From Cymodocea nodosa (taxonomy: Eukaryota > Streptophyta > Magnoliopsida > Alismatales > Cymodoceaceae), in the NCBI GenBank assembly GCA_036874045.1, contig CM072345.1, positions 1,885,501 to 1,949,500 on the forward strand: a stretch of DNA of 64,000 bases, written 5' to 3'. Below, one piece after another: positions 1-47,616 of this stretch; positions within the stretch are counted from its first letter, which is position 1, and each line of letters opens with the position of its first letter. A program made the position numbers and the translations under genes. The notes beneath the pieces were generated by a model. It was not told the DNA's origin. It did no database searches and worked only from the letters and a program-made list of their open reading frames with translations.

Positions 1-591
1 AAAAATGATATACAAAAACATCATGAAAGTAATGAAAATCTGGAAGATGTATGTGTAACATTAAGATCAGGAACTGATATACCACCAAGAACTCAAAATG
101 AAAATGATATGAAGGTGGATAAGAGTAAAAATCAAAATGATAATGAAAATGTAATAGCTGAAAATCTAGAAATCACTGAAGAACAATCTGAATCTGCGAA
201 TGAAGCTAAAAATGATTAAACAAATCAACTGAAAGAAAAAGAGTCTTTGAAATCAAAATCTTTAGCACCCTATCCTGAAATATTATAACAAACAATACCT
301 AAAAGACAAGAGAAAATCAGAGAAATTTTTGAAAAAGTACAAGTTAACATTCCTTTGTTAGATCTATTGCAGAAAATGCCACCTTGTGCTAAATTTCTTA
401 AGGATTGGTGTACTAAGAAAAGAGAGCGAAAAGTTCTTAGAAAGGTCTTTTTAGTTAAGCAAAGTAGTTCCCTATTTTTGCCATAAATTCCTAAAAAGTT
501 ATCTGATCCTGTAATCCCTATTATATCATGCACCATAAGAAATACTATTCTAGAAAGAACCTTAATAGACTTAGGTGCAGGTATAAATGTT
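1..591 (+). pseudogene. Athila gag C-terminal tail, broken
   Basis: Frame 1 reads from the first base through a lysine/asparagine/glutamate-rich Gag tail. It includes VTLRSG followed by PYP and a segment ending MPPCAKFLKDW, the usual Gag-to-protease transition of Athila/Tat elements. Three in-frame TAA codons (near 217, 286 and 484) align with CAA glutamine codons in the nested relative at 5981, 6049 and 6242, so each is a C-to-T change. The upstream zinc knuckle seen in the nested copy lies just outside the window. Confidence 0.8.
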
Positions 592-1095
592 ATGCCAAGT
601 GATATATTTGCATCCTTAGGATTAGAAGGCTTAATTCCTACTAGTATGGTTATTCAATTAGCTGATAGAAGTATAAGATACCCTAGAGGAAAAATAGAAG
701 ATGTCTTAATTAAAATCAAGAATTTTATATATCCTATTGATATTGTAATTTTGGATTCCCAACAAATTAAGCATAAAAATAGTGATACATCTTTAATTTT
801 GGGAAGGCCATTTTTAGCAACATCAGGGGCTGTTATAAATTGTAAAATTGGAGTAATGAAGTTATCATATGGTAATGAGGATACTCAATTAAATATTTTC
901 AAACCAGAAAGGTTTGAAGAGTTAGAAATGTCCTTGCATACCATAGACTTTTTAGAGGATGAAGGAGATATGTTAGATGATGTGATTCAAGAAGAATTAA
1001 ATAGGCAAATCAATTCTGAAATTTTAGAAGAAAGTGGAAGCATAAATATAGAAAGAGATATGGAAGAAATTAATTTAAAAAATGATGATGTTTAG
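530..1095 (+). pseudogene. Athila retropepsin-like aspartic protease domain
   Basis: Frame 1 encodes TLIDLGAGINVMP, the DLGA-type catalytic loop of plant Ty3 proteases. It is followed by the usual LGL / ADRSIRYPRG-KIEDVLI strand pattern and LGRPFLATSGAVINC. The domain is collinear with the downstream RT in the same frame. An acidic tail ends in TAG at 1093-1095, after which the frame stays open toward RT. It would release the polyprotein domains by cleavage. The protease motif itself looks intact. Confidence 0.85.
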
Positions 1096-2640
1096 TTAGG
1101 AGCTCTAGCTTCTAATGGGCAACATTTAGAATTAAAACCTTTACCTCCTGAATTAACCTATATATTTTTGGAAGATAAACAAACCTATCCAATCATTATT
1201 GCTTCAGATTTAAAACAGGATCAAATAACTAAATTAAAAGATGTAGTAAAAAGTTATAAAGAAGCAATAGGATGGACTATGACTGATATAAAAGGGTTAA
1301 GTTCAACTTTATGCTAGCACCACATATATTTAGAAGAGAATGCTAAACCTGTTAGAATTCCTGAGAGGAGATTAAATCCAAACCTTAAAAAAGTAGTCAG
1401 GAAAGAAATAGTTAAATGGTTAGATAATGATATAATTTATCCGATTTCTGATAGCTCGTGGGTTAGTCTAATCCATGTAGTTCCCAAGAAATCAGGATTA
1501 ACAGTTATTAGGAATGAAAGTCAAGACTTGATACCTACTAGAATTCAATCAGGCTGGAGAGTATGTATACACTATAGAAAGTTGAATGTTGTGACTAGGA
1601 AAGATCATTTACCCTTACCTTTTATAGATCAAATGCTGGAAAGATTAGCAGGGCAAGAATATTTTTGTTTCCTAGACGGGCATTCAGGGTATAATCAAAT
1701 TCCAGTAGCATTAGAGGATTAAGAGAAAACAACTTTCACCTGTCCTAATAGAACTTATGCTTTTAAGAGAATGCCATTCGGATTATGCAATGCGCCAGCT
1801 ACCTTTCAAAGGTGTATGCAGGGCATATTTACTAGAATTACTGAAGACTTTTTAGAAATATTTATGGATGATTTTACTGTATATGGCAACTCATATGAAG
1901 TGTGTTTAAGCAATTTAGACCAAATATTAAAACGTTGTGTGGAAAAAAATTTGGTTTTAAATTGGGAAAAATGTCACTTCATGGTTAAACAAGGAATAGT
2001 CTTAGGGTTGGAAGTAGATAAAGCTAAAATAGAAGTAATTTCTAATCTACCAGAACCTAAATCAGTAAAAGATATTAGATCATTTCTAGGACATGTTGGT
2101 TTTTATAGAAGATTTATTAAATACTTTAGCAAGATAGCTAGACCTTTAACTAATCTATTAAAAGATGTCCCATTTAACTTTGATAAAAATTGCAAAGAAG
2201 CATTTTTCAGACTTAAAACTAGTTTAATTTCAACTCCTATAATTCAAGCACCTAATTGGAACCATCCATTTGAATTAATGTGCGATGCTTCTGATTTTGT
2301 TGTAGGAGCAGTGTTAGGACAGAAGATATAAAAATCTCCTAGAGTGATTCATTATGCAAGCAAAACCTTAAATGATACTCAAGTTAATTACACAACTACT
2401 GAAAAAGAATTATTAGCTGTTGTGTTCGCTTTAGAAAAGCTTAGATCATATCTTATTGGAACTAAAGTAATAGTATACACGAATCATTCAACTCTAAAAC
2501 ATCTAATAAAGAAAAAAGAAACTAAACCTAGATTGATTTGATGGATATTATTATTACAAGAATTTGATCTAGAAATTAAAGACAAAAAAGGTTGTGAGAA
2601 TGTAGTAGTAGATCATTTATCAAGATTACAAGTAGAAAAA
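1096..2640 (+). pseudogene. Athila reverse transcriptase and RNase H, stop-interrupted
   Basis: Frame 1 runs through RT. A thumb-proximal YLEENAKPVR region is followed by FLDGHSGYNQIPVA (first catalytic Asp), MPFGLCNAPATFQR and FMDDFTVYG (the xMDD box), then the connection LVLNWEKCHFMV. RNase H follows with CDASDFVVGAVLG and [14 protein letters not shown], then [10 protein letters not shown], where the family norm is TDH, so a catalytic Asp appears changed to Asn (G-to-A). Stops: TAG near 1315 (expected Gln), TAA at 1720 (expected Gln), TAA at 2329, and TGA at 2539 (expected Arg). There is no frameshift. The copy is dead, but its frame is fully preserved. Confidence 0.9.
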
Positions 2641-3103
2641 TCAAATATTAAAATTAAGGATAATTTTCCTAATGAACAATTAATGACCATCAACACAATA
2701 CCTTAGTATGCAGACATAGTTAATTATTTAGTTACTGGTTTAACACCTAAGGATTGGAGTAGACAGGATAAGAAATTATTTTTCTCAAGAGTAAAATATT
2801 ACTATTAGGAAGACCCATACTTATTTAAGAAATGTCCTGATCTAGTTTTAAGGAGGTGTATTCTAGAAACTGAATATTCGAGCATGTTGTCTTTCTGTCA
2901 TGACCAAACTTGTGGAGGACATTTTGGTTCAGGGAAAACTACTGCAAAAATTCTGCAATGTGGGTTTTATTGGCCAACACTATTCAAAGATGCTCATAAA
3001 TATTGCTTAAGTTGTTTAAGATGTCAACAAATACGAAGAATATCAAAGAGGAATATGATGCCTCTTAATCCTATTGTTGAGGTTGAAATCTTTGATGTGT
3101 GGG
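2641..3103 (+). pseudogene. Athila integrase, N-terminal zinc-binding part
   Basis: This continues frame 1 from RNase H. The H2C2 zinc-binding module is visible as CHDQTCGGHFG...YWPTLFKDAHKYCLSCLRCQQ, ending VEIFDVW. Stops at 2704 (TAG, expected CAG) and 2806 (TAG, expected TGG) interrupt it. The reading frame is cut at 3103 by the nested element and resumes at 6672 in the correct codon once the insertion and its 5-bp duplication are removed. Confidence 0.88.
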
Positions 3104-4965
3104 CGTTTAGAATGAAAAAGTACATATTATTAACGGTTAAATGATGGTTAATTGCATAATATTTAGCTTATCATTTGAGAATTAAGCCATTATGTTATAA
3201 TTGCACTATTATATGCTTTAATTGAAGAATCTGCTTAATTTTGGGGAATTAATGTTAATTTAGTACATTTATGAACTGTCGATAAATTACAGGCTGTGAA
3301 ATTCTTAAGTATCCGAAAATGCATCTGAGCATCAGATAGTTATACCTGTAACTCTCCGAAATGTTATTTTATGTTTAAACTGCTGTTGACACGTATTGAG
3401 AGCTAGTAGATTTACTTACGTTATAACTCGTTAAGTTAGTATAACTGCACGTGTTGAGTTACATGAAAATACACTAAGGCAACGCATTAGGTTAGTGTTA
3501 TAAACTTAAGTTGTTATTTTTGCACGTATTTTATAGTTAAATCAACGAAGGAAGTCCGTTGAGTTATTTGTAACTCTACGGACTATATATTTTCTAATAT
3601 GCCACTGTAGCGGTTGCAGGAACAGATAGTTGGAAGGAAAAACCACGTTCGCACGTATCACGCAGAAATTCAATCGCGTAGGGAGAAAGAAATCATCGCC
3701 GTTGATTTGAAGGAAGGAAATCCAACCGATCATTTAAGTAGAAGCAGTTACCACTGAAGAAATATAAAAGAAAAGAAGAAAGAAAGAAAGAGTGTGATCG
3801 ATGGACGGCCAGTGTATACAGAAGAGGAGCAGCGAGCTTTCTGTAGACAGTATCGACAATTCTTCGAAGTATCACACCAACCATCGTATCACCACCATAG
3901 TCACCAATCTTTGGAGGTCTGTGAGGATACTTGCCTGATGTCGGGTTGATTCTAAGCAAAACACAGTGCCTGACAACCACTGTGAGGAGTGATCGCGTCA
4001 CGGGAAGGGAAGGCATTTTCACCAAGCGCCGACTCATATTTCAGGAGATCATAAAGCTTTTAGCCTTGGCTTCAGGTTGATGCCTGTATGCTGAAGTGGA
4101 GATCATCTTGCAATTCTGGACTCACGATTCTATAGGGAGAGGAAACAGAATTGTAAGTGGTTCAATTTTCAGTGGTGTAATCGCATTGCAAGTAGTGTCA
4201 GAAGTATTTAATGTCAAGTGAAATTACTTTACATTTCACCTTTCGCCCATTTCCATGTTCACATAAAAACAAAAATACCAAAAACAATTTATCTTTGTTT
4301 GTATGTTGTATTTGAGTGTTGTATTGTTTGTGTTGTATCGTGATTAATGTTATCTGTATCAGTTTTATGATTGTTTTATGTTAGTTTTAATTTTACAGTT
4401 TACTGAAATTGGTTCGTACAAAACAACTTAAAGATTTTAATGGTTACTGTTTGAATCATCTGAATGTTAGTATTGCATAATGATAAATCCAATGTTAACT
4501 AGCATTAAAAAGCTTAATTGATGTTATTTACAATCTGTGGAATCGCCCAATGGTTGGCCGAATTCCTCTGTAAATAGTAGTATTATAAAGATGAGATAGG
4601 CTCGTGGAGTTAACTTAAGTCCATAAGGATAGTCCGTTGAGCTAGCCATAACTCAACGAACTTAGTCTGTTGAGTCAATTGTAACTCAACAAAGTGCTTA
4701 TTGAATATAAATTTGAATTGTTCACAATCAAACATTTCTTAAATTCGTCAGCAATTCCCTGTGCGATCGACTTGTACTTGCACACTAATACAATAGACAC
4801 TGTGCACTTGCAGTTAAAGTACAAATTGGAATTAATATCTAAATTGTATTAAAGGTTGTTTGTTTACTTCTAAAAGAAAGAATAGGCATAAAGATAAATT
4901 AATTAAGTAAAAATAGAAGTAACAAATCCAAGTTTTTCTAGTGTAGTGCTGGGAAAACACGAACA
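3104..4965 (+). repeat. 5' LTR of nested Athila-family element
   Basis: The boundary is set by the target duplication on the left and by the GAACA end before the primer site on the right. At 1862 bp it is about 330 bp shorter than the sister LTRs at 17378 and 52673. The missing part lies between two copies of the TATCCGA word, suggesting recombination between repeats. It contains the dyad-plus-TATA promoter unit at 3555-3593 and a 104-bp block (3424-3527) also present in a Ty1 LTR. Confidence 0.9.
3555..3593 (+). promoter_or_regulatory. Dyad repeat abutting TATA box in Athila LTR
   Basis: TCCGTTGAGTTA (3555-3566), a 4-bp spacer and TAACTCTACGGA (3571-3582) form a dyad with one mismatch, and TATATATTTT starts at 3584. 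The same arrangement recurs at 18182-18220. The likely role is the core promoter plus a dimeric factor site driving genomic RNA. CCGTTG fits the plant MYB core CNGTTR. The function is inference. Confidence 0.6.
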
Positions 4966-4972
4966 AGTTTTA

Positions 4973-4990
4973 TGGCACCGTTGCCGGGGA
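4973..4990 (+). other. Primer-binding site, aspartate-tRNA type
   Basis: TGGCACCGTTGCCGGGGA lies 7 bp after the 5' LTR. It matches the TGGCGCCGTTGCCGGGGA site typical of Athila/Tat elements except for one G-to-A change. It primes minus-strand DNA synthesis. Confidence 0.88.
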
Positions 4991-5075
4991 ATTGAATTGA
5001 ATTGAATTGAATTGAATTGAACTGAATTGAATTGAATTGAATTGAATTGAATTGAACTGAATTGAATTGAATTGA
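4991..5075 (+). repeat. ATTGA pentamer tandem repeat in the element leader
   Basis: There are seventeen consecutive 5-bp units directly after the primer site. Fifteen are ATTGA and two are ACTGA (5021 and 5056), exactly 35 bp apart, so a seven-unit block was duplicated. It lies in the untranslated leader just ahead of Gag. Confidence 0.97.
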
Positions 5076-5140
5076 GGCAATTGTTAAAGGTGTTTCATTT
5101 TAATAGTCAGAGTTGTGTGTTTTCTTCTGTAATTGAGAAT

Positions 5141-6390
5141 ATGGCATATGCTTATGCTCAAAGATTTCTGAAACCTTTAATTAGCATATGTGAATTTTGC
5201 AATTCTGAAGGACACGACATTTCTAATTGTTTGAAATTGAGACATTTACAGATTGATAGATCCCATGAACAACAAATGAATTATCCTCAATATAATAGAG
5301 TCGAGTATGAGAATCCTATAGTTTACCCAACTGATGGTCAGTATAGAATGTGTAATATGATGAGAGACACTAAAGTTTGGGATAGCTATGACAGACTGGA
5401 GCATAGTATAGAGCAAAATCTGGACAAACTGGAATACTTTGTGTGTCAACAACAAGAAGTCAACCAATTAAACTATAATGAGGCATATTCAGAACCTAAA
5501 CAGGATATAATTTACGAAACTGAAAAAGTCAAAAAGAAAATTGATCAAAAATTGAATGCAATGAAATTAGATGATCTAGAAACAAAATTAAAAGCATTAG
5601 ACAAAAATGCAATGAAAATACAAGTTTTACAACAGGACAATGAAAATTATAATGTTATAAACCTACACAACTTGCAAAATATACAACAAACAGAAAACAC
5701 AAATGTAAGAGAATTTAAAGAATGCACTTTAAAACTAAAAACAATTGAAGATCATAATCACGAAAATGATATACAAAAACATCATGAAAGTAACAAAAAT
5801 CTGGAAGATGTATGTGTAACATTAAGATCTAGAACTGATATAACACCAAGAACTCAAAATGAAAATGATATGAAGGTAGACAAGAGTAAAAATCAAAATG
5901 ATAATGAAAATGTAATAGCTGAAAATCTAGAAATCACTGAAGAACAATCTGAATCTGCAATTGAAGCTAAAAATAATCAAACAAATCAACTAAAAGAAAA
6001 AGAGTATTTGAAATCAAAATCTTCAGCACCCTATCCTAAAAGATTACAACAAACAATTCCTGAAAACAAGAAAAAATCAAAGAAATTTTTGAAAAAGTAC
6101 AAGTTAACATTCCTTTTCAGATCTATTGCAGAATATGCCACCTTGTGCTAAATTTCTGAAGGATTGGCGTACTAAGAAAAGAGAGCGAAAAGTTCTTAGA
6201 AAGGTCTTGTTAGCTGAGCAAAGTAGTTCCCTATTTCTGCCACAAATTCCTAAAAAGTTATCTGATCCTAGAATCCCTATTATATCATGTACCATAGGAA
6301 ATACCATTCTAGAAAGAACCTTAATAGACTTAGGTGCAGGTATAAATGTTATGCTAAGTGATATATTTGTATCCTTAGGATTAGAAGGCT
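5141..6390 (+). pseudogene. Athila Gag tail (zinc knuckle) and protease start, nested copy
   Basis: I choose the ATG at 5141 (MAYAYAQRF) because everything upstream is leader repeat. A CCHC zinc knuckle, CEFCNSEGHDISNC, sits about 20 residues in. A lysine-rich coiled-coil-like region and the VTLRS...PYP tail follow. A frameshift near 6100 moves the frame, and protease (LIDLGAGINVM) resumes in frame 3 until the deletion point at about 6390. There is no capsid domain: the ORF starts at the nucleocapsid. A capsid-type Gag is instead found 3' of integrase in the outer element. Confidence 0.82.
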
Positions 6391-6392
6391 AT

Positions 6393-6666
6393 GAGTGCTT
6401 ATTGAATATAAATTTAAATTGTTCACAATCAAACATTTCTTAAATTCGTCAGCAATTCCCTATGGGATCGACCTGTACTTGCACACTAATACAATAGACA
6501 CTATGCACTTGCAGTTAAAGTACAAATTGGAATTAATATCTAAATTGTATTAAAGGTTGTTTGTTTACTTCTAAAAGAAAGAATAGGCATAAAGATAAAT
6601 TAATTAAGTAAAAATAGAAGTAACAAATCCAAGTTTTTCTAGTGTAGTGTTGGGAAAACACAAACA
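6393..6666 (+). repeat. 3' LTR remnant of nested element
   Basis: It matches the last ~275 bp of the 5' LTR (from GTGCTTATTGAATATAAA onward) and ends AACA next to the second GTGGG. The 5' part of this LTR and most of the interior were lost in one deletion whose junction is at 6390-6393. Confidence 0.9.
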
Positions 6667-6671
6667 GTGGG

Positions 6672-7540
6672 GAATAGATTTTATGGGTCCATTTCCTATG
6701 TCTAATCAATTTAATTACATATTGTTGGGGGTGAATTATGTATCTAAATGGATAGAAGCTATTCGTATAAAAACTAATGATAACAAAGTGGTAATACAAT
6801 TTATAAGAACAAATATCAGTGATAGAGGAACTCATTTCTGTAATAGAAGTTTTGAAGCCTTAATGAAGAAGTATGGAGTAAACCACAAAATTGCAACATC
6901 ATATCATCCGCAAACAAGTGGACAAGTAGAAAGTGCAAACAAACAAATTAAATTAATCTTGGAAAAAGTAGTAAATCCTACCAGAACAGATTGGGCTAAT
7001 AGATTGATAGATGCACTTTGGGCTTATAAAACTACTTATAAAACAAGCTTAGGTATGTCACCTTTTAGGCTAGTATATGGTAAAAGTTGTCATTTACCAG
7101 TTGAAATAGAACATAAAGCCTATTAGGCATTAAAAACTCTGAACACTAATTTAAATCAAGCTGCTAAAAATAGAAAAATGCAACTAATTGAATTAGAAGA
7201 ATTTAGAAATGAAGCTTTTTCGAAGACTGTAAGAGAAAAAGAGAAAATTAAATTCTAGCATGATAGAAAAATTATTCCTAAAAGCTTTGAAATAGGACAA
7301 GAATTATATCTTTATATGGCTAGACTCCATAACCATCCAAGAAAATTAAGATCTAGATGGGCAGGACTTTACATAGTTCGAAATGTTTATCCTTATGGAG
7401 CTATTGAAATTGAAAATCCTAAAAATCAAAATATATTTAAAGTAAATGGACAAAGACTTAAACCTATTCTGAAAACACCAAAAAGCTCCTTTGGAATTAT
7501 AGAAGAAGTTAGAGTAGGGGACTACTCGAGCTTTAGTTAG
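6672..7540 (+). pseudogene. Athila integrase catalytic core and C-terminal domain
   Basis: This resumes integrase: GIDFMGPFP (first Asp), [15 protein letters not shown] (second Asp; the usual SDGG is SDRG here) and [18 protein letters not shown] (Glu). The core is followed by [31 protein letters not shown] and a C-terminal GQELYLY...RWAGLYIVRNVYPYGAIEI module. TAG codons at 7124 (expected Trp in HKAYWALK) and near 7257 (expected Gln) break it. No frameshift is present. The product would join element cDNA to host DNA. Confidence 0.9.
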
Positions 7541-8125
7541 TAAGAAATCAGTTTTTATGTTTATATATATATATAAAAAATTTAATTAAAAATATATATA
7601 AAACATAAAAATAGTTGCGGTTCAACCGATTGGATCCATCGGTATGACCGGAACATAAAAAATTGTATATTAATTTTCAGGAAAAAATATTGGTTTTACC
7701 GAAACATAGTATCGATTAAACCGAAAGAAAAATAAAAAAATAAAAAATATTTAGGTTTGATCGAAAGAAAGTATCGGTTAAACTGGTAAAAAAATAAAAA
7801 AACTATTCTCTGTAATATTTTTATTATTATATTTGGTTGTACGAGGAGTCCGTTGAGTTACACTTAACCCAACGAGCTTACTCCATTGAGTCTTGAGTTA
7901 GTCAACGAGCTTATTCCGTTGAGTTAACTGTAACTCAATGGAGTACTGTAACTAAGACCGCAGATAAAATAGTAATAGTTGGTTCGGGAAATGACCCGAT
8001 TACCCGCCTAAACTTAGGGCTTATTTAAACTAAAACCTAAGGTTTTGGAGGCATTATCCGGCAAATCATTTAGAATCTAGAATAGTAAAAATCAGAGCGA
8101 TTCCATGCTATTGTGTAACTCCACG
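7541..8125 (+). other. Spacer between integrase and ORF X, with dyad repeat
   Basis: This AT-rich stretch holds an AT microsatellite (7561-7610), several copies of a CGGTT/AACCG word (7617-7790), and a dyad cluster at 7846-7945. The clearest dyad is TCCGTTGAGTTA at 7915-7926 with TAACTCAATGGA at 7931-7942. No LTR boundary is visible, which argues that the downstream ORFs belong to the same element. Confidence 0.6.
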
Positions 8126-10384
8126 ATGAGAAAGATGACGCTTGAATTCTAGGAAGAAGTTGTTGATACATCAGAATTTCTGAAGGAATCAGAAGAGTGG
8201 CACACGTGGTAGAAGATCAGAAATACGACAAGAGAGAAAGAGTTACAAAAGGTAGAATTAGAACTTTTCAATTTCAAAAGAGATTTAGTAAATTTGGGTA
8301 TACAAATACCTCAAATAATGGAAACACGAATCAGAATAGCAACAGAAATAGCTGTAAGCAAGGAAAGACAAATAAGGCCAAGTAATGAAGTTGTCCTAGA
8401 ATTAATCCAACGTAAGTCCCGGCTCTGGTTCAAAAGACGAATCTGTAAATGAGCTAAATGGGCGATTTGGGAGTAAGAAAGGAAACAAAATGAAGAAGAG
8501 GCAACTGAAGGACAAGAGGAGCCGACTACTGAAAGACCTATTCCTGAGGAGCAGTTGCTTGGACCTTCAGTTCCACCATTTAAGTCGTTGGCACAAGTAG
8601 AAATGATGGAGCCTTCGACTAAAGAAGAAATAAGAGAATTTGCAGAACTAGTTCAAGTTGGGAAGAACCAAGGAGAATTAGAAGACTTGGTAGTGGCCAA
8701 AGCCCACCTAGTGTTTGATGCACTTTACAAAAAGAGGGCTACAGAAAAGTTGAAAGCCCAATATAAAATCAAAGTGGAACAACATCACAAAGCTACTGCT
8801 AGAACTACTGTTAGATATGTTGCAAAAGAAGCTGAAGTTGGTCTTTCAAGACCAGCAATTATTGGAAGAATTAAACAGGAAGAGCTAGTACCTATGGCTC
8901 AAAGGCCTGCAGAGCCTATTTTTGTGGATTTAATTTCAGAAGATGAAGAGGAAGAATAGGTACAACTACTCAGAAAAAGGAAAGGAAAAGAAAAAGTGCC
9001 TGAATATGAAGAAATTAAATCTGAAGTACCAATTTTTACAGGGCCTGTTGAGCAGATTTTTATTAACCTACTATTTGATTCTGAGGAGGAGCAGGAGGAG
9101 CAAAGAAAAGAAGAAAATCAGGCTGAAATTAGTCTACAGCCTGTACAAGAAGAAATAGAAATTAGGGCAGAAACTGAATTGCTCGTGACTCCATCCCAAT
9201 CTGTTACAGAATCAGAAAGAATAGTAACAGAACAGATTGATAGTTAGGAGGAAGAAGAAAGAGTAGAAAATGAAGAGGCTGAAAGAAGCCATTTGGACAA
9301 AAATAATTTCACAGATTCCACTGAAGAGTAAGAAACTCTTTAGCAAATTATGGAAAGAATTCAAGACAGAGTTGAGAGTTCTGTCGGTTCACCACCACAG
9401 ACAAAAGCAAAAGCAAAAATTCAAGAATCTGAAGAGAATGTTCAAATGCAGCCTATGCTAAAGGAAGATCAAGTACAAACCCCTCTAGAGCAACAAAGTC
9501 ACCTTCCTGACCTGATTGAAACAACAATTTTGAATGAAGTACACTTTAGTAGTCAGGAAGCTTATACTAAATATCAAGAAATAAGGGGTTACGATATTAT
9601 TTATAGTAGACCAGTAAATTGGGATGGAATGCAAGAAATCAAAGAATTATTTGAATTCCAATGTCTACTACAATTTATATCTCAAGAAAGAGGGCATGCA
9701 GTATATGAGAATTTAATGCCCTGTTTCTATGCAAATTTAAGAGAAGGAGAAGGAGGATTAATTTCAAATGTGGAGGAAGCTGATGTAAGAATAACACTAG
9801 AGCTTCTCCACAACATTTTTGGTTTAAAGAATGAAGGAATGAAAATTTTGGAAGATACAACTACAGTTGAATGGACTGAGCAACAAATTAAGGATTGTTT
9901 AGCTATCAATCCTGGTGTGCCATTATTAAACAGATTGAAGTATTTAAATGGTAAAGCACACATGGTAGCTAACATTCTGATTAAGAATGTCTATCAACGA
10001 TAGGGCCATGATATAGAATTAAGTCAATTTGTCAAATGGGCCACATATATAGTTGTAAATAAGATCCAAATAAATTGGTCTACAGTTTTTATCTCTAAGC
10101 TAAAAACAGTGAAGAAGAAATTATTTTATGGAGATTTGATTCCACTGCTGATGGTGGACTGTATTGATTTCACGAAATGGACATCAAAAAGGATCAGATC
10201 TAGAACCATTTCAGTGAAAGAATACAGGAATTTTGTAGCTGCAGAACTAGTTGTACCTTCTGGAGGAATTTCGGGAGTAGTAGAAAGGATAAATCAATTA
10301 GAGCAACAATTAGAAAAACTTCAGAAGGAAGTAGATGAACTTAGGAAATTGAAATTACATTGTATTATTCGTCTACATGTGTAA
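8126..10384 (+). pseudogene. ORF X: unidentified element-borne protein with C-terminal coiled coil
   Basis: From the ATG at 8126, frame 2 stays collinear for about 750 codons to the stop at 10384. It is interrupted only by in-frame stops (TAG near 8150, 8210, 8957, 9245, 9341 and 10001; TGA near 8451; TAA near 8475 and 9329). Its parts are an N-terminal basic region, an acidic Glu/Gln-rich linker with two short repeats of an IFVDL-SEDEEEE / IFINL-DSEEEQEE type, a globular region with FYANLREG (about 9727), and a heptad-patterned end (RINQLEQQLEKLQKEVDELRK). The FYANL segment recalls the putative plant transposon protein domain seen in Athila/Tat elements, but that is from memory. It occupies the place of the env-like ORF in Athila. 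I see no membrane segment. Confidence 0.65.
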
Positions 10385-11454
10385 AATTGTATGATGTACT
10401 TATAATGTAATTGATTCATATTAATGAATATAATTTTTCAGATGCAATTTTCATACGTGTTTTGGATGTGAAATGAATGGAATTTATTGAATATTATGTA
10501 ATTTGTGGAACTTTATGAATGAATATGTAACATATTTACAAATTGCTGAATGACAAGATAATTGCTTAAAAATTTTTGCATGTTGTAAGGTAAAATGTAA
10601 ATTCTGTATAACATAAAATGACCTGCAAGTTAAATCTTTATATAATGTTCAAATTTAAATGTATTTTAATCAAAATGATGCATTAATGACATAGATTTAA
10701 CTTTATTACAGTTAGCAGAATGACAAAAAAAAAAAAAAACAGAATAGAAACACTTACGAGAGTGAAGCTTAGAAGTTACTAAGTGTTAACTCAACGAAGT
10801 AAGTCCGTTGAGTTAACCGTAACTCTACGAGGTCAGTAATATAATATAAGGTCACTCCATTGAGTTATCTGTAACTCAATGTAGTTAGTCTGTGGAGTTA
10901 TCAACAGTAACCGACTGTGTTCTGTTAAGTAATCTGTAACTCAACGAGGTTAGTTCGTGGATTAAGCAGAACAGTTATTCTTTTAACCACAAACGAAACT
11001 TCATCGGTTTAGTAGTTACCAAAATTTGAAATTAGTAGTGGTACACGTACTCATAAAAGCAGGAACCACGATGCACGTTACAAGACACGTTCTTGCAATG
11101 AGATTTATTCACTTTATCAATATGCAGTATATATATGAAACATAATGTTATTTACAAGTTACCAGCACTTTTAAAAGAAAGGAGAATGCATTGGAGGAAC
11201 TGGAAGGAGAAGCAGCTGATTCAACTTCATCCGACAACAAATATTTATAGAATGGAAAGCTTCGGACTAGTATGTAATTAATTTTCTGCTATTTATTTAT
11301 GAGCACATGGACTTGTTCTCTAAGCACTAAACGATTAGTAAGAACACCTACCTAGGAATTTTCATTGTAGAGGAGTACTAAAAAATTTTCTGAATTGAAC
11401 TTTAACGAAATTCTTTGGGGTGTAGCTAACCTTTCTTTAAAAGAGAACGTAGAG
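10385..11454 (+). other. Spacer between ORF X and downstream gag, with dyad cluster
   Basis: Non-coding and AT-rich. A dyad cluster runs over 10790-10960, with the best unit at 10804-10831 (TCCGTTGAGTTA ... TAACTCTACGA), a sequence family shared with the LTRs. A poly-A run of 14 lies at about 10726-10739. No gene is supported. Confidence 0.6.
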
Positions 11455-12641
11455 ATGGCTTCTCTAGTAGAAAAACCATTAGGAGAGATTCTGTATCCTG
11501 AATTAATTGATGAACATTCATGTATTCGATTGCCAAACTTTGAGGGAGATAGGTTTGAACTGAAATCTAATTATATTAGTCAATTACCACATTTTCATGG
11601 ATTAGAAAGAGAGGATGCCTATTATTTCCTTAGAGAATTTAACGAAGATTGTCAAATGATGAAAATGCCGAACATGAGTATAGATGCTATTAAACTTAGA
11701 TATATCCCTTTTTCTTTAAAAGATACAACTAAGAGATAGTTATATACTCTATCGCTTGATTCAATTTCTACATGGATTGAATTTTTCTCTATTTTTCTGG
11801 AAAAATATTATCCAACACATCAAACGATTAAAAAGAAGAAAGAAATATTAATGTGTAGCCAAAACAGGGTGAATCATTCTGGAAATATTTTGAAAGATTT
11901 CAAGATTTACTAACTCAATGTCCACATCATGCATTGAGTAAAGCACAATTAATAGGTATAATTTATGAAGGCATAGATGCTTCAACGAAATCTTTATTTG
12001 AATTTACTTGTCAAAATGGATTTTTAAAATTATGTAGTGAAGAAGCATGGGCATATTTAGAAAATTTTGCAAAAAGAACTGCATAGTGGGAAAATTCGGT
12101 TGAAGCTATTGCAAATAAAAGAATATTGCCAAGAGGAATGCATAAAATAGATTTCAATACTATGCTTGAGGTGAAATTAAATGAATTAACAAAGAAAATA
12201 GAAGAGTTATCATTAAATCAAAAGCTAGCAGAAAAGAATGCAAACATAAATGACTTAGATATTATTTATGCTAGAAACTAGAGAGATAACTTGGGAAATT
12301 CTTATCATCCTAATTGGAGAAGTCACCCGAATTTATCTTGGAGAAACAACAATTTCCAGGGAGGAGAAAATATAAATGATAAGAACATAAGTTATGAAGT
12401 ATTAATTGAACAAGGAGCTAGAATAGAGAAATTAGAAAAGATAATCCAACAAGTAAACAATCGTCTAGAATTTATATTTGGAAATGCTGCAATTCAAAAT
12501 CAGAATAGAAATATATCACTTAGACAGAAGGAACCAATGGAAGTTAGACCTACTAGAGGATTGCCAATACACACTATACCTAATCCTATCAATAGAACGA
12601 CTAATGAAATTGATACCTCTTCTAGGAGGGCAGCTGAATGA
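11455..12641 (+). pseudogene. Gag capsid-type domain located downstream of pol
   Basis: From the ATG at 11455, frame 1 gives an N-terminal linker and PHFHGLEREDAYYFLREF, then SISTWIEFFSIFLEKYYPTH, the pattern of plant retrotransposon Gag. A frameshift near 11855 moves to frame 3, which continues GESFWKYFERFQDLLTQCPHH, EAWAYLENFAKRTA and, after a coiled coil, NWRSHPNLSWRNN, the Athila Gag signature. In-frame TAGs occur at 11737, near 12085 and near 12279. No zinc knuckle follows, whereas the zinc knuckle sits alone before protease in the sister copy. Gag thus appears divided on either side of pol. Confidence 0.8.
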
Positions 12642-12699
12642 AGCAGCATATCTAAAGCAACTATCTGTATGTATATATGTTTCTTTTTTTTAGTTAATA

Positions 12700-12831
12700 G
12701 TATCGTAGAGTTAATTTTTAACTTAACGAACTTTGTCCGTTGAGTTATGCCTTAACTCCATGAGGGTGTGCAGTAGTTATGTTAATTTTTGTTTCTACTA
12801 AATTTTAGTTTGTGTTATACAGAATCGACAA
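12700..12831 (+). promoter_or_regulatory. Dyad repeat and 3' splice-site-like sequence before F-box ORF
   Basis: A dyad unit lies at 12736-12764. It is followed by TTTCTACTAAATTTTAG, which contains a TACTAAAT branch-point-like word, then a T-rich stretch and ATACAG ending at 12822, ten bases before the F-box ATG. This looks like a splice acceptor that could place the F-box ORF on a spliced subgenomic RNA. The function is inferred from sequence only. Confidence 0.45.
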
Positions 12832-13971
12832 ATGGAACTAATGCAATTACCATTGGATGCACTAAGGGAAGTACTAAGTAACTTGTCAGCTAAAGATCTG
12901 TGCAGGCTGTGTTGTGTATCAAAGGAAATTAAAGACTGTATTGAACAAAAATATTTTAAAGGACTACAAGCTGCAAAAATGACTAAGATTAGAGATGGAT
13001 TCATATGGAGGTCATTTAATCGTAGTTCAAATACTCATGAATATCTGGCTATGGAAGAAACTATTGGAATTCCACCCAATGCATTAGAAGGAATAAATTA
13101 TATTATGGGGATAGATGAAGGATTAATCATATACAAGACTAGACTAAGGTATGCAAGTTTATTATTACCTAATACTTTGATAAGAAATCCTATAACAGGA
13201 GAAGAATGGAATATAGGAAGACCTAATAGATTTGAAGCACCAACTGTAAATTGTGGGTCAACTTTAATATTTTCTAATAAAAATTTTGCAATTCCTGAAA
13301 AATTATATTATTGGAGACCTACAGGAAATTGGGGTAAAGATTTACGCTTAAGTGTGTATAATTTTCTGAATAGATCTTGGAATGAAAACATTATAATATA
13401 TCTAGGACAAAAATCATTAATTAACCAAACACATGTCATACTTGATGGATATATCTATTTAGTCACAGAGATATCAATAGCATATAGATCTGATTTATAC
13501 ATAGTGAGCATAGACAGTTATGATGATTATATAGAAATTTTACTTGTACCGAGTGAAATAGCTAAACCACCATCTCCAGAATTTAATGAAATTCAAATAA
13601 GAATGTGGTATAATGAAGAAGATGATCCTACTTTATGTCTGATAAGATGGTGGGATGAACTGATGAAATTTCAAATATGGATTATGGAATGCATGAATGA
13701 ATGGAAGTGGGAAGAGGAGTATGTTGAAATAGATGTAGAAATAGAAACTACTACATTACCTTGGAACCAAAAAGGATCCCTTTCTGCATTACATATCATT
13801 AATGATAATACACTCGTATTTGGAATTTATAATATATTGCATGTTTACAAATTAAGAAGGAACAAGAACTGCATTAAAATAGAATTAATAGCAAGAAGAA
13901 CTATGCCTAAAAAGTTTGCTTGGACTGATACATTTATTCCATTTGTTTTTACTTTTCAATCATGTTCTTAA
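12832..13971 (+). CDS. F-box protein, intact ORF inside the Athila element
   Basis: A single open frame of 379 codons runs from ATG to TAA without introns. Residues ~5-40 form an F-box (LPLDALREVLSNLSAKDL, then CRLCCVSKEIKDCI), which by family knowledge binds SKP1 in an SCF ubiquitin ligase. The rest is the kind of beta-rich region found in plant F-box proteins with an associated interaction domain; NPITGEEWNIGR near residue 120 is the typical N-P-x-T-G-E motif. It lies between the downstream gag and the element's polypurine tract, on the element's strand. It is the only long ORF of the element with no stop or frameshift. The substrate is unknown. It could be a captured host gene under selection, or a recent capture not yet decayed. 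Confidence 0.85.
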   Translation: MELMQLPLDALREVLSNLSAKDLCRLCCVSKEIKDCIEQKYFKGLQAAKMTKIRDGFIWRSFNRSSNTHEYLAMEETIGIPPNALEGINYIMGIDEGLIIYKTRLRYASLLLPNTLIRNPITGEEWNIGRPNRFEAPTVNCGSTLIFSNKNFAIPEKLYYWRPTGNWGKDLRLSVYNFLNRSWNENIIIYLGQKSLINQTHVILDGYIYLVTEISIAYRSDLYIVSIDSYDDYIEILLVPSEIAKPPSPEFNEIQIRMWYNEEDDPTLCLIRWWDELMKFQIWIMECMNEWKWEEEYVEIDVEIETTTLPWNQKGSLSALHIINDNTLVFGIYNILHVYKLRRNKNCIKIELIARRTMPKKFAWTDTFIPFVFTFQSCS

Positions 13972-14398
13972 GTTGTGATTTTGTGTGTTTAATGTTGTGT
14001 ATTTTGCATTTTTTTTTAGAAAAAAAAAAAGAAATTTTGAAGTTTTCATGTTCATTTTATAAAAAAAAACAAACAAAACAAAATATCAATCTAGTTTGTT
14101 GGTATTTGTTCTAGGAAACCAACTAGCTTGCTTGTGAGCCACCAAAGGCATAGGAGCCTAGGTTCCACACAAGACGCTGATTTATTAATATCTATTAAAT
14201 GTTATTTTGTTATATATTTTGTGTTTATTTGGGAATGAAAAGTTTTCTAGAATCAAAAATCGGAATATGCAGAAGGAGATACAAATGGAACAAGGTATGT
14301 AACCAATTACTTATCCTGAATTTTAAATCAAACAAAATTGTATTCATGCCTGCTACAATTACTGTATTTATTGTCAAATCTATTACATTGAGGACAAT
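13972..14398 (+). other. 3' flank of F-box ORF
   Basis: Homopolymer-rich AT sequence follows the F-box stop (runs of T and A at 14010-14080), then a unique stretch ending TTGAGGACAAT at 14388-14398. When the solo Ty1 LTR is removed, this joins to GCAAAATGTGGGTATGGGGGGGAGG at 16047. The combined motif resembles the GAGGACAAT...GTGGGGG signature I associate with the 3' region of Athila/Tat elements. No gene is seen. Confidence 0.5.
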
Positions 14399-16041
14399 TG
14401 TTGAGTATTTTTGTTTTGATGATGTGTGCTGAATGAAAATAATCATATTTGCTCAATTACTATTGCTTGTGAAAAGAAATTAAAATCATCAATTAATACA
14501 GAAAAAGCTTACTGATATAAATACTTGTCTGTATTAGATCTGAAGTTAATAACTAGTCGTTTCGTTGTATTAATTTCTCATTTAGCTAAACGTTAAGTTA
14601 ACGTGTGTTTTTATTGAAAAGCATGATATGTTTTAATGTTATATCTTCTGTATCATGAACAGTGCACGTTTAGACAACTCGTTAAGTTAGAGTTTTTTGT
14701 ATAGAGGTCACGTGAGAACTCGTTAAGTTAGAGGCTTAAAGGTTAAAATAGGTCACGTGATAACTTGTTAAGTTAGTGAGTAAAAGAAGAGACGAACTCG
14801 TTAAGTTAGTGTTATACACGTGGTGAAATTATAAGTTATGAATGTTGTATTGTATCACGTGAGGTGTACATGTTTAACTCGTTAAGTTAACATAACTAAA
14901 CGCGTTGAGTTGCTATATTAAACACTAAGGCAACGCGTTAGGTTAGCATTATAAACTTAAGTTGTTATTTTTGCACGTGGTAAAATTCTTATTATAAAAA
15001 CATTTGTTTATTACTGGTTCGTTGAGTTATCATAACACAACGGAGATGGTTCATTGAGTTATCATAACGCAACGGAGATGGTTCGTTGAGATATCATAAC
15101 ACAACGGAGATGGTTCGTTGAGATAGCATAACACCACAGACATAGTTCGTTGAGTTAGCTACAGTACTTGTCACGTGAAATAGCACATGAGGAACTCGTT
15201 AAGTTAGAAACGTTAAGTTATATATATACTTGTGTTACTCGTTTAGTTAACATTAAAGTAACGACTTCTTATTACACTAATGAAAAACTTTTGGACGAGA
15301 AAGTTTATTTTGCAGGAAATTTTTCAGAGATCCAAGACTGATGATTAAAGAAAATTCAAAATATAAATGTGGGTTAGAACGTGTGTGTTTTGATGAAGGA
15401 AAAAGAAAAGACGTGGAGAAGTGGAAACCTGGTGGTGGTTAAACGTGAAGGATATGCATGAAATGAAGATACAGTATAAAAGGCATGGAATTCTCGTTGA
15501 TCAATTTATCCTTGCATATAAAACGAAAAATCTTTTCAAGGATCAAACCATCCCTGCACACCAAAAGAAAAATCTTTTTCAGGGATCAAAAACACTTCTT
15601 CGAGAAAAATCTCTCAAGTAGAAGAAAGTTCAGTGAAGCATAAAAAGGTAAGATTTTCGTCACTGAAGATTTGAAGTATCAGAAGAAAGCAAATTCGATG
15701 AAGCATGAAAAGACAAGATATTCGTCATTGAAGAATTGCTGAAGAAGAAAAAGAAGAAGAAGAAAGATCTCAAATAGGGAGAAAAGTTTTAAATTCTGCA
15801 AATTAATTTTCTCTGTTTGTAGTTATAAAATTGTTTAGATGATACATGGTATCGAAATATAATTGCATCTACAATTTCTGAGGAGAATTGAATTGTATAT
15901 TGTAATTGAAACCTTGAATAAAAATGATTTTATGAAAACAATGTATCGACTTGTTTTTGAGTTTTAAAGTTTCAATTATATTTCAGAAAATATTAAAGAT
16001 ACACAATTCACCCCCCTCTTGTGTAGCTGTACGATCTTACA
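14399..16041 (+). mobile_element. Solo Ty1/copia (Sirevirus-like) LTR
   Basis: This 1643-bp LTR starts TGTTGAGTATTTTTG and ends CACCCCCCCTCTTGTG...GATCTTACA, as in the copia A LTR. A perfect 5-bp duplication ACAAT flanks it (14394-14398, 16042-16046). It contains many AACTCGTTAAGTTAG words alternating with CACGTG G-boxes (14690-14900, 15170-15240), a 32-bp tandem array, and a TATA-like TATATATATAC near 15217. It was left by recombination between the two LTRs of a former insertion. Confidence 0.93.
15015..15160 (+). repeat. 32-bp tandem repeat within Ty1 LTR
   Basis: Four full units and one partial of a 32-bp unit beginning TGGTTCGTTGAGTTATCATA and carrying CAACGGAGA. Each unit is itself an imperfect dyad (GTTGAGTTAT / ATAACACAAC). 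The array lies about 60 bp upstream of the TATA-like sequence, where an enhancer would be expected. Confidence 0.9.
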
Positions 16042-16046
16042 ACAAT

Positions 16047-17377
16047 GCAAAATGTGGGTATGGGGGGGAGGTAATTAAAGTAACAGCCATGTAAGTTTGT
16101 TAATTAAAGGAATTAAAATGGTACTGCAAAGTTTTGAGGAAATTGAAAATTTTTATGAACTTGTTGTAACTATCTGATAATTGAGACTGTAAAATTTTTA
16201 TAAATTGCTTGAATGTTATATTTAGAAGGCTATAGAAGATGCTATAGAATTTATTATTTATGTAAATCTAGATATAGTATCTTATGTTTTTTCTGAAGTT
16301 CATGAGTTTAACAGTTTCACGATTTTAAAATGAAATCAGAATACTTAATGCTTAATCAGAAAATTATCTGAAGTCCTAAAGGAGCTGAAATGTGAATTCT
16401 AGATTAAATGAAACACATATGATTAAAGATACATTTAATTTGATCGATTGAACTTGTAGAATGATTTATGTGTAGATCTTATTAAACTACAAAAAAAGTA
16501 TGAGCTTATTGTTATGGATTCATATTTTCAGTAAATGATAGAAACAAGATTATATGAGATTGGCGTTTTACTTCATCTGTATTAATGAAATACATACATA
16601 TACAATATGTGATTAAGGTTTTGTGTGTATTTTGATTGAAAAAAGAAAGGAAAAAATAAATAAATAAATAAATTTCGAGAGTTTATTGACTTATTTGATC
16701 ATGAGCCTTTTGTACTTGAGCAGATAGGTATGTAAGGATTGTTGACCTGAAATAGGACTATTCAAATCTGGCAACCTAAGATCCTAATCAGATCTGGGAT
16801 TGTTGACTGAAAGCTCATTACATAGGTACATTAGAAAGCTATTGTATGATTCAAGCTTGTCAAATTAATTCTTAAAGAAAGAAAAAAAAAGAAAAAAAAA
16901 TATACTATTCTGAAAAGATACAAGTGTTTTGTGAAATACAGATATCTTATGAATTGAGTATATTTTCTGTTATCTAGAATTGCTGAAATATGAATATGAA
17001 ATTGACTTTTGAAGTTGTTTAATGGAGATACAATTCTTTATTCTACTTGTCTTAATCAGATTGAATTGGATTGTACTTTGATTCGTATGTTGTTGAAATT
17101 TCTTCTAGAAATCTTATTGGAAAATTCAGGATGACAGATGATGAAAAGAAGAACAAACGATAATATAATTAACACCTATATGATGATGATATACTTTGTA
17201 TATAATTTACATATATTCTAAGTATCTTTGCAGGTTGATTACTGAAACATACAGAATATATTTTTATGCTAAATAGAAGAAAAACAAAAGGGGAAGAATT
17301 AATTCTAGCACTTTTAAAAACCAATTAATTAGATCTTAGTTTGCTAAGGGACTAGCAAAATTTAGGTATGGGGGAAG
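16047..17377 (+). other. 3' internal tail and polypurine tract of the giant Athila element
   Basis: No ORF is supported. A G-rich tract TATGGGGGGGAGG lies at about 16060-16072. The terminal polypurine tract GGTATGGGGGAAG (17365-17377) ends at the first base of the 3' LTR and would prime plus-strand synthesis. The interval also has A/T-rich simple sequence (for example, AAATA repeats at about 16653-16672). Confidence 0.75.
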
Positions 17378-19563
17378 TGTTTAGAATGAAAAAGTGTATA
17401 TTATTAACAGTTAAATGATGGTTAATTACATAATATTTAGCTTATCATATAAGAATTAAGCCATTATGTTATAATTGCACTGTTATATGCTTTAATTGAA
17501 GAATCTGCTTAATTTGGGGGAATTAATGTTAATTTAGTACATTTATGAACTGTCGGTAAGTTGCAGGCTATGAAATTCTTAAGTATCCGAATTTTTTGAT
17601 ATTTCGGACAGTTATGTTTAACATACTGAACATATTTTGGATAGTTATGTTTAACAAACTGAATATGTCGGATAGTTATGTTTATATTGCCGAATAGTTA
17701 TGTTTTGAAAGAATATTTTATTATTTCCAGAAGTACACGTGTCGAAACTAGAATAAATGACTTAAGTGAACTTTCGGTGAGTTATATATAACTATCCGAA
17801 ATTGCAGCTAGGCATCAGATAGTTATCCTTGTAACTCTTTGAAATCTCTTTTTATTTATAAAATAGCTGAGGACATGTGTCATGTTCTGGGAAAGTGACT
17901 TAAGTAGATTTTCGGTGAGTTAGCTATAACTATCTGAAATGCATCTGAGCATCGGATAGTTAGATCTGTAACTCTTCGAAATGTTATTTTATAATTAAAA
18001 CTGCTGTTGACACGTGTCGAGATCTGGTAGATTTACTTAAGTTATGTATCGGTGAGTTATTTGTAACTATTCGAAATGCATCTGAGCATCGGATAGTTAA
18101 GTTCTTAAGTATCCGAAATGCACCTAAGCATCAGATAGTTAAATTTATGCACGTGTTTTATAGTTAAATCAACAAAGAAAGTCCGTTGAGTTATCTGTAA
18201 CTCCACGGACTATATATTTTCTAATATGCCACTATAGCGGTTGTAGAAACAAGACAGTTGGAAGGAAAAACCACGTTTGCATGTATCGCGTAGGAGAAGG
18301 AAGCATCGCCGTTGATATGAATGAAGTAAATCCAACCAATCATTCAAGCACAAGCAGTTACTACTGAAGAAATATAAAAGAAAAGAAGAAAAAAAGAAGA
18401 AAGTGTGATCAGTGTGTGATTGATGGACGGACAGTGTGTGCAGAGGAGGATGAGCGTCACAATTCTCTAAAGTACCACACCAACCATCATCACCACCATA
18501 ATCACCAACCATCGGAGGTTTGTGAAGATACTTGCCTGATGTCAGGTCAATTCCGAGCCAAACACAGTGTCTAACAACCACTGTGAGGAGTGATCGCGTT
18601 GTGGGAAGGGAAGCCATTTTCATCAAGCGTCGACTCATATTTCAGGAGATCGTAAAGCTTTTAGCCTTAGCTTCGAGTTGATGCTTGTATGCTGAAGAGG
18701 AGATCATCTTGCAATTCTGGACTCGCGATTCTATAGGGAGAGGAGACAGAATTGAAAGTGGTTTAATTTTCAGTGGTGTAATCGCGTTGCAAGTAGTGTC
18801 GGAAGTATTTATTGTCAAGTGAGATTACTTTACATTTCAACTTTCGCCATTTCCATGTTCACATCAAAACAAAAATACCAAAAACAATTTATCTTTGTTT
18901 GTATGTTGTATTTGAGTGTTGTATTGTTTGTGTTGTATCATGATTAATGTTATCTGTATCAGTTTTGTGATTGTTTTATGTTAGTTTTAATTTTACATTT
19001 TACTTAAATTGGTTCGTACAAAAGACTTAAAGATTTTAATGGTTACTATTTGAATCATCTAAATGTTAGGATTGCTTAATGATAAATCCAATGTTAACTA
19101 GCATTAAAAATCTTAATATATGTTATTTACAATCTATGGAATCGCCCAATGGTTGGCCGAATTCCTTTGTAAATAGCAATATTATAAAGAAGAGATAGGC
19201 TCGTGGAGTTAATTTAAGTCCACGAGGATAGTCCGTTGAGTTAGCCATAACTCAACGAACTTTGTCTATTGAGTTAACTGTAATTCAACGGAGTGCTTAT
19301 TGAATATAATTTTGAATTCTTAACAATCAAACAGTTCTTAAATTCGTCAGGAATTCCCTATAGGATCGACCTATACTTGCACACTGATACAATAGACACT
19401 GTGCACTTGCAGTTAAAGTACAAATTAGAATTAATATCTAAATTGTATTAAAGGTTGTTTGTTTACTTCTAAAAGTAAGAATAGACATAAAGATAAATTA
19501 ACTAAGTAAAACAAAAGTAACAAATCCAAGTTTTTCTAGTGTAGTGCTAGGAAAACCCAAACA
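17378..19563 (+). repeat. 3' LTR of the giant Athila element
   Basis: This 2186-bp LTR begins TGTTTAGAATG right after the polypurine tract and ends AAACA. U3 carries several AACTATCCGA...TCGGATAGTT dyads (17807-18130) and the dyad-TATA promoter unit (TCCGTTGAGTTA at 18182, TATATATT at 18211). A second dyad cluster is at 19200-19300. It is nearly the same length as the independent solo LTR at 52673, which confirms its limits. Confidence 0.94.
18182..18220 (+). promoter_or_regulatory. Dyad-TATA promoter unit, 3' LTR
   Basis: TCCGTTGAGTTA (18182-18193) and TAACTCCACGGA (18198-18209) form a dyad with a 4-bp spacer and one mismatch. TATATATTTT starts one base later, at 18211. The same unit occurs in the nested 5' LTR and, decayed, in other family LTRs. 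It is the likely core promoter of the family. Confidence 0.6.
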
Positions 19564-46645: not shown

Positions 46646-47616
46646 ATGGACAATTCTGAAATCTTAGTTATGACTGAAGGACAGACCACTAATCGTCCTC
46701 CTATGTTCGAATGTAGCAATTATGGCTACTGGAAATATAGGATGAAAGTATTCTTTCAGTCAATTGATTTCAAACTATGGCATATAATTAGCAATCCTAT
46801 AGTGTTAGTTACGACTCCATATGATACTTGGACTTTTGATGAAAAGAAGCGAATGACACTGAATGTTAAAGGTTTAAACATCTTGTTTTGTGCTTTATCT
46901 CATGATCAATTTAATAAAGTTTCTGCATATCAAACTGCATATAAGATATGGCATGCTTTAGAAGTTGCCAATGAAGGTACTAATCAGGTCAAGGAATCTA
47001 AGATCAATATGTTAGTACATAAATATGAGCATTTTAAAATGCACAAAAATGATGTATCTTTGACATGTTTTCCCATTTTCTTGAGATTGTAAATTCATTA
47101 AAATCTTTAGGCAAGAAATTCGAGGAAAAAGACTTGGTAAGAAAGATCATTAGATCTTTAACTAAAATTTGGGTTCAAAAGACAACATCTATTGAAGAGT
47201 CCAAAGACTTAAATACATATACTCTTGATAATCTCATAGGAAATCTAATAGCCTATGAAGTACAACATTTAGATCCAAAAGGGAAAAATCCTAGAAGGGA
47301 TCTGGCTTTTGAGGTTGATAAAGTCTCAGAAGTCACTAGTGATTCTAACGATGATTTACTGTTGTTGACTAGAAAATTTAGAAATCTATTGAAGAAATGC
47401 AGGAACTTCAGGTCAGCAAAGACATCTGGAGATATGGAGAAGAAGTCATTCACGAAAGACAAAAGTATATACTACAAGTGCAACAGATCGGGTCACTTTC
47501 AAACTGATTGTCCTCTCAACAAAGATAAGAAGAATTCAAGGAGGAATTTTAGGAATAAGAAATTCAGAAAGAGAAGGGCGCTTAAAGTGACATGGGATGA
47601 CACTTTAGCTTCATAA
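46646..47616 (+). pseudogene. Copia A Gag, frameshifted
   Basis: The ATG at 46646 begins MDNSEILVMTEGQTTNRPPM, then YWKYRMKVFFQSIDFKLW and KIWHALEVANEGTNQVKESKINMLVHKYE, the plant copia Gag core. A frameshift near 47080 moves the frame; the tail continues to a zinc knuckle near 47475 that reads YYKCNRSGHFQTDC, so the first Cys of CCHC is Tyr (G-to-A). It would form the particle shell and bind RNA. Stop at 47616. Confidence 0.87.

Follow-up and report, generated by a model that had tools for sequence, protein, structure and literature searches.

A giant retrotransposon in the genome of Cymodocea nodosa holds an intact F-box gene, which raises the questions of whether the gene belongs to the element and what its protein might do there. 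The window analysed here is the whole stretch of 64,000 nucleotides at C17:1885501-1949500, in a genome of 374.6 Mb on 28 contigs. A first-pass annotation of this window had placed an intronless F-box ORF of 379 codons on the element's strand between the downstream gag and the polypurine tract (PPT), and had read it as captured cargo. The ORF was confirmed at 12832-13971 on the plus strand, where a single frame of 379 codons runs from ATG to stop with no internal stops.

The F-box ORF and its protein

The F-box domain occupies codons 4-42 of the ORF (12841-12957). The Pfam F-box profile (PF00646) matched residues 4-42 at 7.3e-11 and 42 bits, against a curated cut-off of 20.5, and the domain was found in all nine family members scanned. 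Of the C-terminal F-box-associated domains (PF07734, PF08268), FBA_1 gave 0.072 in one of these nine members and FBA_3 gave 2.5 at best in four of them, both far below any threshold. The AlphaFold2 single-sequence model of the protein had a pLDDT of 32 and was unusable; its secondary structure has helices at the F-box and mainly strands beyond it. The protein is most likely a substrate adaptor of an SCF complex.

Homologue searches found no host parent gene. A profile built from nine copies matched no protein at E ≤ 10 in a collection of 5.8 billion sequences, and the window protein matched none at E ≤ 0.001 in the same collection, in a search that detects sequences of similar length with exact words in common. 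Plant proteins are represented in the collection: the integrase region of the same element matches many of them, for example from Vitis, Malus and Elaeis. An ancient capture of the F-box gene followed by extensive divergence may account for this, or a parent in a lineage outside the collection. Of the proposed capture, membership in the element is established by the copies described below, whereas the host origin is presumed.

Structure of the element around the ORF

By comparison with 20 copies (9 kb each), the outer element consists of window positions 1-3103, 6667-14398 and 16042-19563. Its first part (487-3103, plus strand, identified by Pfam and sequence comparison) contains the protease (487-1092), the reverse transcriptase (1318-2328) and the start of the integrase with its zinc-binding region, and it carries stops. 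The integrase gene is interrupted by a second element of this family, nested within it and internally deleted (3104-6666, plus strand; LTR at 3104-4965, LTR end at 6393-6666), which is bounded by the target site duplication (TSD) GTGGG at 3099-3103 and 6667-6671. Since 3104-6666 is this nested element, the 5' LTR that belongs to the outer element has to be located beyond the window's left edge. At 6667-7537 (plus strand) the integrase resumes with its core (rve, 2.3e-08) and its C-terminal part.

Downstream of pol, one or more Transposase_32-like extra ORFs lie in pieces at 8477-10381 on the plus strand (PF20167, E 0.0025 in the relative L013, below the Pfam cut-off). They are followed by a capsid-type gag at 11455-12638 on the plus strand, with a frame change near 11862 in the window copy and a Retrotrans_gag match of 1.2e-20 in the relative L010. 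Beyond the F-box ORF, another repeat was inserted at 14399-16041, ahead of the PPT; it is absent there from the 20 fetched copies. In 19 of them 14398 is directly followed by 16042, and in L020 a longer segment is missing here. On copy comparison, the outer element ends with a PPT at about 17365-17377 and a 3' LTR at 17378-19563, both on the plus strand.

Pieces of the repeat at 14399-16041 recur elsewhere, for example in L010, L014 and L021, and 14396-14875 matches 20050-19559 in inverted orientation. Elsewhere in the window there are a piece of a Beta_elim_lyase gene (PF01212; 36929-37378), Copia-type gag and reverse transcriptase ORFs (46646-47616 and 61073-62515), and two ORFs of 123 and 199 aa beside LTR-like repeats (55957-57083) with no Pfam match above the cut-off.

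A pyrimidine-rich stretch on the plus strand (12790-12822), found in the sequence and by copy comparison, ends in an AG (12821-12822) 9 nt before the ATG of the F-box ORF. This AG is a predicted 3' splice site that could serve a subgenomic RNA. It is kept in 34 of 39 readable copies (18/20, and 16/19 among gag-anchored copies); the exceptions are L013, which has AA, L028, in which the stretch is deleted, and L058, L061 and L062. In relatives the slot after pol is taken by env-like genes, and related elements make spliced env-like RNAs, as Vicient reportedly described in 2001.

The F-box ORF is a fixed gene of an abundant family

The first-pass annotation had named in advance a test of the ORF's membership in the element, namely whether it occurs at the matching position in other copies. 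A DNA search with the ORF gave 40 scored matches among 4,368 first-look candidates; all 40 are full length, with the window at 100% identity and the others at 96%. The 3' context was the same in all 20 F-box-anchored copies that were fetched. The gag was also used as a search query, which avoids picking copies by the ORF itself. This search scored 40 of 4,140 first-look candidates, one of them the window, and the F-box slot was fetched from the 20 lowest-ranked of the 40. The F-box ORF was present in 20/20, full or nearly so in 16 and partial in four, with 82-95% identity to the window ORF. Hence the test was passed with both anchors.

When the protein of L056, a member of the deeper subfamily, served as the query, 109 of 7,052 first-look candidates were scored. 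Every one of these copies matched over all or almost all of the ORF, with 86-91% identity to the query (L056 itself aside), and 11 of the 109 had no stops. The ORF was intact in nine of 39 copies. To count copies over the genome, we used a 26-base F-box signature that matches 54 of 55 other copies at hand within two mismatches. With up to two mismatches allowed, it gave 3,396 matches in the 374.6-Mb genome, and the reversed control gave 0, which excludes chance. Were each of the 3,396 matches complete, this ORF would by itself account for about 1% of the genome; some share will be partial. A 26-base signature of the gag end gave 1,743 matches, a lower count that may be explained by a less conserved 26-mer alone. 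On C1 up to 18.5 Mb, 13 of 25 exact gag-end sites among the matches listed had, by eye, an exact F-box site 298-466 bases on along the same strand. The F-box ORF is thus a fixed gene of a large and very abundant family with thousands of copies. The description of it as cargo was right in assigning it to the element and understated its place there.

Eleven F-box copies lie on one strand within about 1 Mb at C2:8.75-9.71 Mb, ten with one TAA and one with a TAG and a TAA; they are probably a segmental or tandem array.

Complete relatives and family assignment

Three complete insertions flanked by TSDs carry the F-box ORF. The longest of them, assembled from the two adjoining stretches L029 and L016, which were read apart, is about 16.7 kb long with the TSD TTATG. 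Its order is 5' LTR, primer binding site (PBS), CCHC knuckle, protease, reverse transcriptase, integrase, Transposase_32-like ORF, capsid gag, F-box, PPT and 3' LTR, the Transposase_32 and gag domains having been scored in the relatives L013 and L010. Its LTRs show 62 mismatches over 1,879 alignment columns, 46 gaps among these; at a substitution rate of 1.3e-8 per site per year, this divergence dates the insertion to roughly 1.3 million years ago. The other two insertions are shorter elements, L019 (TSD TGGTT) with an intact F-box ORF and L026 (TSD TCTAC) with one stop in it. L015, L016 and L017 look like duplicates of one insertion because their 3' flank is common to all three.

Gag, the Transposase_32-like part or the bulk of pol is missing from several of the 20 copies. 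In L011, L020, L026 and L027 the usual 5' part of gag-pol is missing, with junctions in common that match the window at about 5041/7585 in all four and also at 7959/10300 in L011, L020 and L026, and the F-box is kept. These four look like non-autonomous derivatives amplified in trans.

LTRs, PBS, PPT, TSDs and pol domains in the order protease, reverse transcriptase, integrase place the family in Ty3/gypsy, and in the integrase region it shares 62-66% identity with many plant proteins of this group. In L029/L016 and in the window, the capsid part of gag is found only downstream of pol, and the CCHC knuckle is still 5'. The gag of this family is thus split and permuted, and the family departs from the Athila arrangement, in which gag stands at the 5' end of gag-pol. 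We call the family Athila-like, a label resting on the PBS and gag motifs, which we take to be of Athila type, and on the weak Transposase_32 match (E 0.0025, below the cut-off).

Selection on the ORF

The first-pass annotation had suggested selection from the lack of breaks in the ORF, and had named dN/dS on aligned copies as a check. The intactness of one copy is weak evidence, but the comparisons between subfamilies supported the suggestion. The window ORF and four deep copies differ with a dS of 0.25-0.31 and a dN of 0.11-0.12, giving dN/dS of 0.40-0.45, and L056 gave 0.26 and 0.23 against L051 and L053, respectively. Pooled over 18 open copies, four of which were fetched without the final stop codon, pairwise dN/dS was 0.75 within the young subfamily, 0.34 within the deep copies and 0.39 between the two (81 pairs). 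The codon model gave an omega of 0.394 for 19 copies (2 delta lnL 102.2 against omega 1), 0.418 for the 18 copies without internal stops (86.6) and 0.319 for seven mostly deep copies (82.3). In neutral simulations, none of 1000 replicates reached the observed synonymous share for L056 and the window or for L056 and L053. Ten of the 20 gag-anchored copies, being partial, frameshifted or gapped, were left out of the pairwise, simulation and 19-copy codon-model sets.

Inside the young subfamily the picture is near neutral. For two pairs, 131 and 675 of 1000 simulations reached the observed synonymous share, and the codon model for nine young copies gave an omega of 0.66 (2 delta lnL 4.7 against omega 1). 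Most differences are private to one copy: among 34 copies, using two-letter columns only, there were 114 nonsynonymous (N), 35 synonymous (S) and 16 stop singletons, against about 118, 34 and 13 expected. Variants common to at least three of the 34 copies were N34 and S17, or 0.72-0.89 of the neutral ratio. Fixed differences between the 34 young and four deep copies were N18:S16, against N114:S35 for the young singletons (Fisher p 0.010); singletons among the four deep copies were N53, S42 and stop 2. The near-neutral differences inside the young subfamily are attributed to decay after insertion, as expected. As such post-insertion changes are included in all these figures, stronger constraint would be expected on the source lineages themselves. 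The stops mostly do not follow the tree, and the stop at codon 43 occurs in three places on it; a stop common to L032 and L034 may be shared by descent, and the C2 copies share one stop through duplication.

Copies whose ORF was not 1140 bases long were left out, namely two of 20 in the first analysis of the young subfamily and L013, L022, L033 and L046 of 39 in the singleton and shared-variant counts and in the comparison of stops with the tree. L015 and L017 were dropped as duplicates of L016 from the singleton counts, the fixed-difference and simulation tests and the comparison of the ORF with the 3' noncoding part. In this last comparison the ORF was less diverged (3.3%) than the noncoding part (5.8-5.9%); it was set aside as evidence of selection because those copies had been picked by ORF similarity, and the gag-anchored set was taken instead.

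Between subfamilies, dN/dS was 0.16 in the F-box (dS 0.475, dN 0.077, 39 codons) and 0.44 after it (dS 0.249, dN 0.109). The lower value is a hint, not proof, that constraint is strongest in the F-box, since it comes partly from a high dS over few sites. These comparisons show purifying selection on the F-box ORF between subfamilies, which we assign to the lineages from which the subfamilies arose.

Proposed function of the F-box protein

We consider the ORF to be an established gene of an Athila-like family for a selected F-box protein, which would work through SKP1 and SCF on a host target, and we give this reading a probability of roughly 0.6. The protein would be translated, perhaps from a spliced subgenomic RNA that uses the acceptor-like site before the ATG. 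Its F-box would bind host SKP1 and so enter an SCF ubiquitin ligase, and its C-terminal part would recruit a host protein that the element gains from removing. Our first guess for the recruited protein, a factor in silencing, chromatin or antiviral defence, has, given the rest, somewhat less than an even chance of being right. The complete proposal, in which a conserved accessory SCF adaptor of the family marks such a factor for degradation, is accordingly speculative and, taken whole, rather unlikely. Amino acids change faster in the C-terminal part, as they would if the host target were moving, and equally if this domain were less constrained.

The main rival to a host target is that the protein acts on the element's own products, setting the levels of Gag, integrase or the polyprotein via SCF and thereby copy number or particle composition. 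The F-box gene comes directly after gag, itself out of place beyond pol, and the two may share an RNA and a role; in L028, however, the F-box is open although gag is deleted, and we regard this explanation as unlikely.

The protein could also be selected for a role that involves neither SKP1 nor ubiquitin, such as a structural one or one in RNA export, and have retained an F-box-like fold. A tryptophan is usual near the end of F-boxes, and the window ORF has an isoleucine in its place; many F-box columns are also variable among the 18 open copies. Against this, the Pfam F-box match is well above the cut-off and dN is smaller within the F-box (0.077) than outside it (0.109), which makes such a role improbable.

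That the ORF is a functionless passenger amplified with the element would agree with the near-neutral variation inside the young subfamily and with the broken state of most copies (9/39 intact, 11/109 without stops), but the constraint between subfamilies and the mostly off-tree stops leave it very little probability. An unrelated host F-box gene, split off and placed beside the element by rearrangement, is refuted by the same element flanks in 20/20 copies, the three TSD-flanked insertions and the 3,396 matches.

Comparison with known systems and significance

To our knowledge, few of the anti-silencing counter-measures that transposons are expected to evolve are known in plants, and we know of no F-box link for VANC of the VANDAL transposons. 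VANC is reported to counter silencing and, like the F-box protein, is an accessory protein of a plant transposon; it differs in belonging to another transposon group and in being a set of sequence-specific anti-silencing proteins (PMC10398659, PMC5735166). Suppression of RNA silencing through AGO1 is the hallmark of the P0 protein of poleroviruses. Like the F-box protein of this family, P0 is encoded by a parasite; it has an F-box-like motif and may engage host SKP1 (PMC6593998). P0 comes from an RNA virus, and the parallel is one of analogy.

Closer in element type are Ty3/gypsy elements of Phalaenopsis, whose additional ORF has an AlkB (m6A demethylase) domain, was kept over several replication rounds and is active in vitro (PMC9289625). 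Here too a large plant Ty3/gypsy family holds a host-type domain in an extra ORF, but the product is described there as an RNA demethylase, with no F-box and no SCF link (PMC9289625). Athila elements have 3' additional ORFs, env-like and Transposase_32, between pol and the 3' LTR (PMC11728184, PMC1142308, PMC7264820). The present family shares this extra gene slot and, by a weak match, the Transposase_32-like ORF; the Athila ORFs, in the accessible parts of these articles, are env-like or without an assigned function, and none is an F-box. The string 'f-box' occurs 0 times in PMC7264820 and PMC11728184. A description of an F-box gene in an LTR retrotransposon was not found in one library of open PMC papers, including the available parts of PMC7602945 and PMC6338049, which is no proof of absence from print; the name 'Pusofa' (pineapple) occurs 0 times in the eight papers listed for it. 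Additional ORFs in plant retrotransposons are already known, one with a host-type enzyme domain tested in vitro. Within the limits of what this one open library shows, an F-box gene has not been among them and adds a new type.

The displaced capsid gene of this family is a further oddity, relevant to the question of how Gag and Pol come to be produced in unequal amounts by plant retroelements. An ORF kept by selection suggests that the element exploits the host ubiquitin machinery, and a selected ubiquitin-ligase adaptor in an abundant retrotransposon is a concrete, testable candidate for counter-defence, whose protein could be used as bait for the host factor. If the proposal is true, F-box counter-defence, a transposon-encoded kind that we did not find reported, may have helped the family to reach thousands of copies.
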